A stretch of DNA of 64,000 nt from Desulfovibrio psychrotolerans. GTDB taxonomy: Bacteria; Desulfobacterota; Desulfovibrionia; Desulfovibrionales; Desulfovibrionaceae. Shown in pieces: positions 39,938-40,963 of the stretch (the stretch's first letter is position 1; each line of letters begins with the position of its first letter). The stretch spans positions 157,579-221,578 of the forward strand of contig NZ_BLVP01000036.1 in assembly GCF_013340305.1 (NCBI RefSeq). The letters run 5' to 3'. Position numbers and translations under genes: made by a program. The notes beneath the pieces were generated by a model. The model saw only the letters and a program-made list of their open reading frames with translations. It did not search any database and was not told the DNA's origin.

Positions 39938-39971
39938 AAAAAGGCGGCCCTCCGTGTGGAAGGCCGCCCTG
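39938..39971 (-). terminator. Terminator after the HesB-like selenoprotein gene
   Basis: GGCGGCC and GGCCGCC form the stem, extended by TCC/GGA after one mismatch. The minus strand ends in TTTTT. Confidence 0.85.
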
Positions 39972-40015: not shown

Positions 40016-40336
40016 TTAGCCGCAGTTGCCCGCGCTGGAGCATCCGCCGCAGGAACTGCCGCCACTGCTCATGGGGTTGGCAGATTCTACCGAAAAGCCC
40101 ATGTAGGAAAGATCAATCTTCACTGCACCCGTCTGGGCCAGCAGGCCGGTGTTGATGCAGAAGGTGAATTCCTTTTCATTGAAAACCGTGTCGTCATCGT
40201 TTGGCTCATCCAGAGCCAATGCCAGGCGGGGGCCGCTTCAGCCACCGGGCGCAAGATAAATCCGTATGCCGGATTTTTCCTTATCCGCAAAATACGCCGC
40301 CAATTCCTTGTGGGCGCTTTCCGTCAATGTAAACAT
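40016..40336 (-). CDS. HesB/IscA-like selenoprotein (Sec33, in-frame UGA)
   Basis: A 106-residue A-type Fe-S carrier-like protein that is complete only if the UGA at 40240-40238 is read as selenocysteine. Translation from the ATG at 40336, with GGAGG seven bases upstream, gives MFTLTESAHKELAAYFADKE..., then LAPGG-Sec-SGPRLALALDEPNDDD. The neighbouring paralog at 40535 has Cys33 at exactly this place (LAPGGCSGPRLALALDEAGDDD). A 7-bp hairpin 18 bases after the UGA fits a bacterial SECIS. The C-terminal CGC pair of IscA is replaced by a Gly/Ser-rich CGGCSSAGNCG tail. HesB-like selenoproteins are a known family in selenium-using anaerobes. An internal ATG downstream would give only a 67-residue fragment. 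Confidence 0.85.
40201..40219 (-). promoter_or_regulatory. SECIS-like hairpin for UGA recoding
   Basis: On the minus strand TTGGCTC-TGGAT-GAGCCAA makes a perfect 7-bp stem with a five-base loop that has G at its second and third positions. The stem begins 18 bases after the UGA and the loop is 25 bases away, inside the range accepted for bacterial SECIS elements. Confidence 0.75.
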
Positions 40337-40342
40337 CGCAAT

Positions 40343-40347
40343 CCTCC
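40343..40347 (-). promoter_or_regulatory. Shine-Dalgarno site of the selenoprotein gene
   Basis: GGAGG six bases before the ATG at 40336 marks translation starting upstream of the UGA. This supports the full-length reading over the internal start. Confidence 0.8.
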
Positions 40348-40364: not shown

Positions 40365-40393
40365 CAAGTACGTACACCTAGAGGTATTGTCAA
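40365..40393 (-). promoter_or_regulatory. Weak candidate promoter of the selenoprotein gene
   Basis: TTGACA (minus strand, 40393-40388), 17 bases, TACTTG. The -10 is poor. The spacer contains the dyad ACCT-CT-AGGT, so an activator-dependent promoter is possible. Confidence 0.3.
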
Positions 40394-40477: not shown

Positions 40478-40506
40478 TGAAAAAGAAAACGGCCCCGAAG
40501 GGCCGT
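40478..40506 (-). terminator. Terminator after the Cys-type HesB-like gene
   Basis: Perfect stem ACGGCCC/GGGCCGT with CGAA loop (TTCG on the transcript strand), followed on the minus strand by TTTTCTTTTT. Confidence 0.9.
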
Positions 40507-40534
40507 CCGCAGCAAGAAGCGTAAAACTGTGCGG

Positions 40535-40858
40535 CTACGAGCAGCAGGAGGAAGAAGAGCCGCATCCGCTGCACCCGCCGCCAGCACCGGGCAGAGGAAC
40601 AACGGGCAAAACGCTGAAGCCGCCGCAGGAAACGGAAATAGTCGCTCCCTGCACCTGATCCAGCAGTGTGTTATTCATGATGAAGCTGTAGCCGTTACTT
40701 TCCGCAGTGGCGTCGTCGTCTCCGGCTTCATCCAGCGCAAGGGCAAGGCGCGGTCCGCTGCATCCTCCCGGTGCCAGATATACGCGGATGGAAGACTTCT
40801 CCTTGTCCGCGAAATAGGCATCCAGTTCCTGCCGGGCGCTGTTTTCCAATGTGATCAT
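40535..40858 (-). CDS. HesB/IscA-like protein, cysteine form
   Basis: A 107-residue paralog of the adjacent selenoprotein. It begins MITLENSARQELDAYFADKE and has the core motif IRVYLAPGGCSGPRLALALDE with Cys33 where the neighbour has Sec. The C-terminus GAGGGCSGCGSSSSCCS carries five cysteines in place of the CGC of IscA, so Fe-S or metal binding through a flexible tail is plausible. It has its own sigma-70 promoter and terminator, so it is regulated separately from the Sec gene. The IscA-type role (Fe-S carrier) is inferred from the fold; a thiol redox role is also possible. Confidence 0.88.
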   Translation of the reverse strand: MITLENSARQELDAYFADKEKSSIRVYLAPGGCSGPRLALALDEAGDDDATAESNGYSFIMNNTLLDQVQGATISVSCGGFSVLPVVPLPGAGGGCSGCGSSSSCCS

Positions 40859-40934
40859 GTTGCCTCCGGTCTGCGGGTGTATACACCCGCATTACGTATT
40901 TCAATGCCTTGCGGCACCGTCTATTTGTTGTTTA

Positions 40935-40963
40935 AATATACCAAAATACTCACTTTTTGTCAA
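40935..40963 (-). promoter_or_regulatory. Strong sigma-70 type promoter of the Cys-type HesB-like gene
   Basis: TTGACA (40963-40958), exactly 17 AT-rich bases, TATATT (40940-40935). The expected start is about 70 bases before the ATG. Confidence 0.8.

Follow-up and report, generated by a model that had tools for sequence, protein, structure and literature searches.

The closest described relatives of the gene analysed here are the HesB-like selenoproteins, of which PMC1794560 lists 11; its Table 3 gives a HesB-like entry for both Desulfovibrio vulgaris and D. desulfuricans. The same source describes two Sec-to-Cys events in the HesB-like family, and a Desulfitobacterium Cys homologue that retains a remnant SECIS-like structure. 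In D. vulgaris, DVU_1382 is given as a HesB-family TGA gene (PMC1914089), while a HesB-like selenoprotein of Methanococcus maripaludis was identified via mutagenesis and 75Se labelling, its function being called not clear (PMC11097638). For HesB-like selenoproteins generally, both a UxGP motif and the protein model TIGR01911 have been given (PMC13188914).

The gene that we describe lies in a stretch of 64,000 nucleotides of the Desulfovibrio psychrotolerans genome, referred to below as the window. Going by their published descriptions, DVU_1382 and the D. desulfuricans HesB-like gene belong to the same bacterial family, are likewise UGA genes of the HesB family, and differ from the window gene in locus and species only. 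The M. maripaludis protein, again as described, resembles it in being HesB-like and containing Sec, but is made through the archaeal Sec pathway. Given that HesB-like selenoproteins have already been reported in D. vulgaris and D. desulfuricans, we regard the window gene as a well-supported further orthologue of the known family, rather than as a new family: the locus is new, while the family is already known in close relatives. The original prediction, made from the letters of the window, had likewise called HesB-like selenoproteins a recognised family, which agrees both with the NF038090 match reported below and with the listings in PMC1794560 and PMC1914089.

A 106-codon frame with one internal UGA

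Read along the minus strand from 40336 to 40016, the frame opens with ATG, passes through a single in-frame TGA (40238-40240) and closes with TAA, giving 106 codons (Table 1). Translation with table 11 yields only one open reading frame of at least 60 aa in this frame, namely a 67-aa frame at 40016-40219 that starts with TTG. The claim that conventional translation leaves only a 67-residue fragment downstream of the UGA is thus correct, as is the claim that reading the UGA as Sec gives 106 residues from an ATG with a GGAGG site; translation and coordinates agree on both.

Table 1. Features of the locus, in window coordinates
Feature	Position	Strand	Details and evidence
Predicted HesB/IscA-like selenoprotein gene, stop included	40016..40336	-	106 aa, UGA(33)=Sec; translation, NF038090, PF01521, IscA fold
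UGA codon 33, predicted selenocysteine	40238..40240	-	TGA in 50/50 distinct Sec genes; aligns with E. coli IscA Cys35
SECIS hairpin UUGGCUC-UGGAU-GAGCCAA	40201..40219	-	Frozen synonymous codons; two-sided changes in four relatives
GGAGG ribosome-binding site	40343..40347	-	Sequence; 6 nt 5' of ATG
Promoter-like TTGACA-17-TACTTG	40365..40393	-	Directly 5' of Sec gene; second hexamer weak
Terminator-like hairpin 3' of Sec gene	39941..39970	-	Stem of 13 pairs, of which 9 are G-C; T-rich tail
Terminator-like hairpin between Cys paralogue and Sec gene	40487..40508	-	Terminator scan
Cys paralogue, 107 aa, Cys33 at the Sec position	40535..40858	-	57% identity; NF038090 94.5 bits vs 85; without hairpin
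Promoter-like TTGACA-17-TATATT of Cys paralogue	40935..40963	-	11/12 consensus matches

The conventional calling could be taken at face value, with the UGA as a real stop or a sequencing error; the locus would then be a pseudogene, or its functional gene would be the 67-aa TTG frame, the only one that standard calling gives here. At codon 40 of the long frame, the TTG in question coincides with the first three bases of the conserved hairpin described below, and the 20 nt 5' of it contain no GGAGG. In each of the seven genus relatives compared, a GGAGG likewise precedes the Sec gene. Furthermore, the same UGA is present in all 50 distinct Sec genes of the family set, and the site is TGC or TGT in 17/17 tabulated Cys copies (the Cys copy of L049, with an offset start, was left out of the codon table). 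A dead or truncated gene is also at odds with the pattern of substitution in the 5' half. Over codons 2-32, the window gene differs from that of L056 at 12.0 of 21.7 synonymous and 2.0 of 71.3 non-synonymous sites, and from those of six other genus members at 11 to 15 of 21.5 synonymous and 4 or 5 of 71.5 non-synonymous sites. With so few non-synonymous against so many synonymous differences, the codons 5' of the UGA are, by this measure, under purifying selection, and hence selected coding sequence. Taking these observations together with the presence of the Sec machinery (see below), we consider it highly improbable that the UGA is a stop or an error.

The hairpin 3' of the UGA

Bacterial SECIS elements are hairpins that lie directly 3' of the UGA, with a G early in the apical loop. 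Part of this rule is given in PMC1794560. The window gene has such a hairpin just 3' of its UGA: it starts exactly 18 bases downstream, comprises seven pairs and has G as the second loop base, matching exactly the geometry first proposed for it (a 7-bp hairpin with a G-containing loop, 18 bases after the UGA). The further proposal, that this is the place of a bacterial SECIS, gains support from the conservation of the hairpin core in Sec genes as opposed to Cys copies, but none from the fold of the single sequence, which is within chance (z -1.5; 16 of 200 shuffles of the 45-nt segment fold equally well). Shuffles of the family Sec windows, 1860 in number, satisfied a loose SECIS rule (stem of at least 5, G among the first two loop bases, right distance) in 35% of cases. 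It is thus the comparative evidence, and not the single-sequence fold, that sets the hairpin clear of chance.

Within the hairpin, codons 41, 42 and 44 are GCT, CTG and GAG in 50/50 distinct Sec genes of the family set, whereas every other tabulated position (codons 2-50, bar 33) uses more than one synonymous codon among the Sec genes. The same three codons vary in the 17 Cys copies, being GCT in 2, CTG in 10 and GAG in 9 of them respectively. The hairpin core GGCTCTGGAYGAGYC was found in 91 of 93 distinct Sec windows of a set made up of the window and L020-L151 (mostly family records, although L075 is labelled a betaproteobacterial MAG), in 25 of 28 Sec windows of the phylum set L152-L179, and in 1 of 103 Cys windows of the former set, the exception being L020; these counts leave out copies that score below 85 bits, lack both Cys and Sec at the site or are shorter than 51 bases, and take identical windows once. 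The Cys paralogue in our own window lacks the hairpin.

The five Sec windows that do not match the core are themselves informative about the stem. L075 and L117 have a C-G pair in place of U-A, while L173 and L176, of the phylum set, have U-A in place of C-G, along with Val for Ala41 and GAA for GAG; each of the four preserves the stem despite a differing protein residue. The fifth, L170 of the phylum set, has a changed loop base and an intact stem. These four paired-change windows were deliberately included in alignment A6 (50 hand-picked Sec windows, 49 distinct rows), in which two pairs have two-sided changes, in 4 cells. Two such pairs were reached by 6 of 500 shuffles of A6, and 4 two-sided cells by 0 of 500. 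Sliding the register by -1 or +1 gives 7 or 6 two-sided cells, against 4 in register, yet slid registers never pair in more than 53% of cells, compared with 90% in register. No two-sided changes occur in the stem in the family-only alignment A1 (from which two Sec windows identical to others were left out, reducing 50 to 48). In the Cys alignment A2 the stem positions pair in 40.5% of cells, which does not exceed what slid registers give. Judged by these alignments, Sec genes conserve the hairpin whereas Cys paralogues do not, and it is selected as RNA.

At the level of single codons, L075 and L117 both have Gly for Glu44 plus a silent difference at codon 41, the protein residue differing and the RNA stem being kept.

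A search with RF00031 (SECIS_1) returned no match in the D. psychrotolerans genome and none in any control genome. We consider this null result uninformative, since not one control genome matched and the model presumably represents the eukaryotic SECIS family. Over the locus itself, Rfam gave matches only far below gathering scores.

Selenocysteine machinery in the genome

The original prediction had named selA, selB, selC and selD as genes to look for, and all four are found in the genome, which is estimated to be 99.86% complete: selA at 611 bits, selB at 366 and selD at 341 each exceed the curated cut-off for their model, and tRNA-Sec scores 79.4 bits with RF01852 (cut-off 47). Among 14 control genomes, the corresponding cut-offs were passed for selA in 1, selB in 2, selD in 2 and tRNA-Sec in 5. 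As 5 of the 14 control genomes also pass, the RF01852 score alone is not proof of a tRNA-Sec; the assignment is supported because ARAGORN reports a tRNA-SeC with anticodon tca.

The selD gene (L010:1522, contig 8) contains an in-frame TGA of its own followed by a predicted hairpin, and is probably a selenoprotein gene as well. The predicted fold, of 60 nt, has an energy of -22.8 kcal/mol.

With the machinery and the hairpin in hand, we can weigh whether the UGA might be read as some residue other than Sec, for example with a near-cognate or suppressor tRNA putting in Trp or Cys. Such a reading could appeal to the paralogues, which have Cys at this very site. However, the genome encodes a tRNA-Sec with the cognate anticodon, together with selA, selB and selD, and the hairpin core goes with the UGA genes, occurring in only one of the 103 Cys windows; we accordingly give readthrough with another residue almost no credence. 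Our conclusion is that the gene almost certainly encodes a HesB-like selenoprotein in which UGA33 is read as Sec. In E. coli, SelB binds the hairpin and delivers the Sec-tRNA (PMC1794560). If the window gene follows the pathway known from bacteria, its hairpin would be bound by SelB carrying GTP and Sec-tRNA(Sec), and Sec would be inserted at UGA33.

Protein family and predicted fold

Against NF038090 (IscA_HesB_Se; cut-off 85) the read-through protein reaches 114.5 bits, and against PF01521 (cut-off 26.3) it reaches 32.9. Its in-frame UGA stands at the conserved Cys/Sec site, within the UxGP motif, which here reads U33-S-G-P. With TIGR01911 (HesB_rel_seleno), in contrast, it reaches 42.2 of the 66.35 bits required, and because this is below the cut-off we place the protein in the NF038090 branch, not in that of the TIGR01911 model.

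An AlphaFold model built on a 21-row alignment has a mean pLDDT of 78.6, falling below 50 in the tail (residues 90-103). Its best matches in the PDB are IscA (1x0g, 1r94 and 1s98) and SufA (2d2a), with E values from 7e-7 to 2e-5. In a profile alignment Sec33 falls on Cys35 of E. coli IscA (numbering counted by hand), and the C-terminal Cys96 and Cys105 are kept in 21/21 aligned proteins. The protein thus resembles E. coli IscA, SufA and ErpA in its predicted fold, in the Cys35 position (occupied by Sec) and in its C-terminal Cys residues, and by fold and Cys35-equivalent it would be classed as an A-type carrier. Equivalog scores do not class it so: it obtains 33.4 of 150.6 bits for IscA, 27.3 of 117 for ErpA and 22.1 of 136.2 for SufA, and does not reach the cut-off of TIGR00049. 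It also differs from these carriers in having Sec for Cys and in its identity to IscA of only ~25% in the structural match. The CGCG motif of IscA supplies cluster ligands, whereas the tail motif of the window protein is CGGC...C.

These differences raise the question of whether the protein, although a selenoprotein, is an Fe-S carrier at all, or is a thiol/selenol redox or metal-binding protein that has borrowed the IscA fold. The latter would sit well with scores below the IscA, ErpA, SufA and TIGR00049 cut-offs and with a CGGC tail where IscA has CGCG, and an AEM review of 2026 calls the functions of most selenoproteins unclear (PMC13188914). It is harder to reconcile with the predicted IscA fold, with Sec placed exactly at IscA Cys35, and with two tail Cys residues kept in every aligned protein. 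We see a non-carrier role as a serious possibility, though one somewhat short of an even chance. The product is predicted to fold like IscA, with Sec in place of Cys35 and a flexible CGGC...C tail where IscA has its CGCG ligands. On the carrier reading, which we prefer but hold much less surely, Sec33 together with the tail Cys residues might take up an Fe-S cluster, iron or a (seleno)persulphide, or pass one on. The neighbouring Cys copy, again much less surely, might serve the same purpose when selenium is scarce or another redox potential is called for. We rate the chance that this is the biochemical role of Sec33, the tail Cys residues and the Cys twin at about even.

The Cys paralogue and local transcription signals

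The Cys paralogue adjoins the Sec gene upstream, and the two proteins are 57% identical over 89 residues. Residues 27-44, YLAPGG(U/C)SGPRLALALDE, are the same in both apart from U/C, bearing out the early observation that Sec33 falls at Cys33 of the adjacent paralogue with near-identical flanks. The Cys protein passes PF01521 narrowly (26.8 against 26.3 bits).

Both genes are accompanied by promoter- and terminator-like sequences (Table 1). The arrangement TTGACA-17-TACTTG stands 5' of the Sec gene in 8/8 genus members compared, the window included; since its second hexamer is weak and the consensus scan did not return it, the Sec-gene promoter is a putative one. The terminator-like hairpin between the two genes suggests that they have separate transcripts. 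Scanning of the region found 3 terminator-like sites where 1.6 are expected by chance, and 1 promoter-like site where 0.9 is expected, and with counts so near chance these sites are suggestive only.

A perfect 18-bp palindrome, GCGGGTGTATACACCCGC, lies at 40873-40890, between the promoter-like site and the start of the Cys gene. It resembles an operator, but the upstream sequence of L056, the closest relative, lacks it, and we do not propose that role.

Tandem Sec/Cys pairs in relatives

Of the family genomes searched, 185 of 199 gave a match to NF038090, as did 165 of 297 from the phylum; one in-frame TGA is common among the matches listed. We compared 51 family loci (the 30 best-scoring, 20 chosen by hand and the window), of which 42 carry a Sec and a Cys copy together, 8 show only a Sec copy and 1 shows only a Cys copy. 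The paired copies are on the same strand in 42/42 loci, with starts 403-715 bases apart, and the Cys copy is upstream in 13 and downstream in 29. Both copies are present in 45 of 80 named loci, which partly repeat the family genomes, and in 2 of 28 phylum loci, or 4 by another site rule; the rule giving 2 leaves some phylum copies unassigned, while that giving 4 mislabels G-S-C-x-G copies. All pair counts derive from profile search. Contig ends can hide a partner, and L050 and L051, being copies of the window locus, were left out of every count.

Weak HesB-like copies with Glu, Asp, Ala or Ser at the site stand beside the Sec gene in L037, L039-L044, L046, L048, L071 and L076-L080. They score about 63-84 bits, and are paralogues that lack the reactive residue and yet have been kept. 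L060 has a similar weak copy, whose site residue is not assignable.

A quick tree of 89 copies (only those over 100 bits, identical proteins left out) needs 10 Sec/Cys changes, 3 of them forced by starred branches. A single clade of all Cys copies (43 rows) is rejected (AU p 2e-7), on an alignment that is short at 105 columns. This suggests repeated Sec-to-Cys duplication or gene conversion, both of which fit the rejection of one Cys clade; because gene conversion produces the same result, the rejection is not proof of repeated origin. Within the genus, the Cys copy is upstream of the Sec gene in the window and L056 and downstream in the six others. We dropped the reading of two origins for these eight Cys copies, since one clade is not rejected for them (AU p 0.611) and the constrained tree outscored that of the quick search.

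The Cys copy at L020:823-1141 (minus-strand coordinates) has an intact SECIS core, GGCTCTGGACGAGCC. It is possibly a remnant, a recent Sec-to-Cys change or a converted copy.

Searching the D. psychrotolerans genome with TIGR00049 (E up to 1) returned the window pair, at 37.3 and 34.4 bits, and one stray of 11.8 bits, all below the cut-off. By this model the genome has no canonical IscA, SufA or ErpA over the cut-off, compared with hits over it in 8 of 14 control genomes. A genome search with PF01521 gave 0 candidates although both window proteins pass its cut-off; this search is insensitive, and we do not use it as a sign of absence. As TIGR00049 finds no other recognisable member, the Sec/Cys pair may be the only A-type-like proteins of the genome.

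Discussion

In the open-access literature searched, we found no paper on the tandem Sec/Cys arrangement. Tentatively, and while thinking it rather unlikely to hold in full, we propose that the tandem pair are selenium-responsive isoforms that make up the cell's only recognisable A-type set, and that in the Desulfovibrionaceae the Cys member has repeatedly been regenerated from the Sec member or overwritten by it. If this were true, the Sec gene would repeatedly spawn a selenium-free backup next door.

As for the gene itself, one that standard calling would shorten to 67 residues is put right, and the HesB-like selenoproteins, whose function is still open, gain a well-supported orthologue. The Cys neighbour, promoters and terminators that seem to be separate for the two genes, and a genome with no further recognisable A-type carrier together make the locus a clean natural system for asking what an IscA-type protein gains from Sec.
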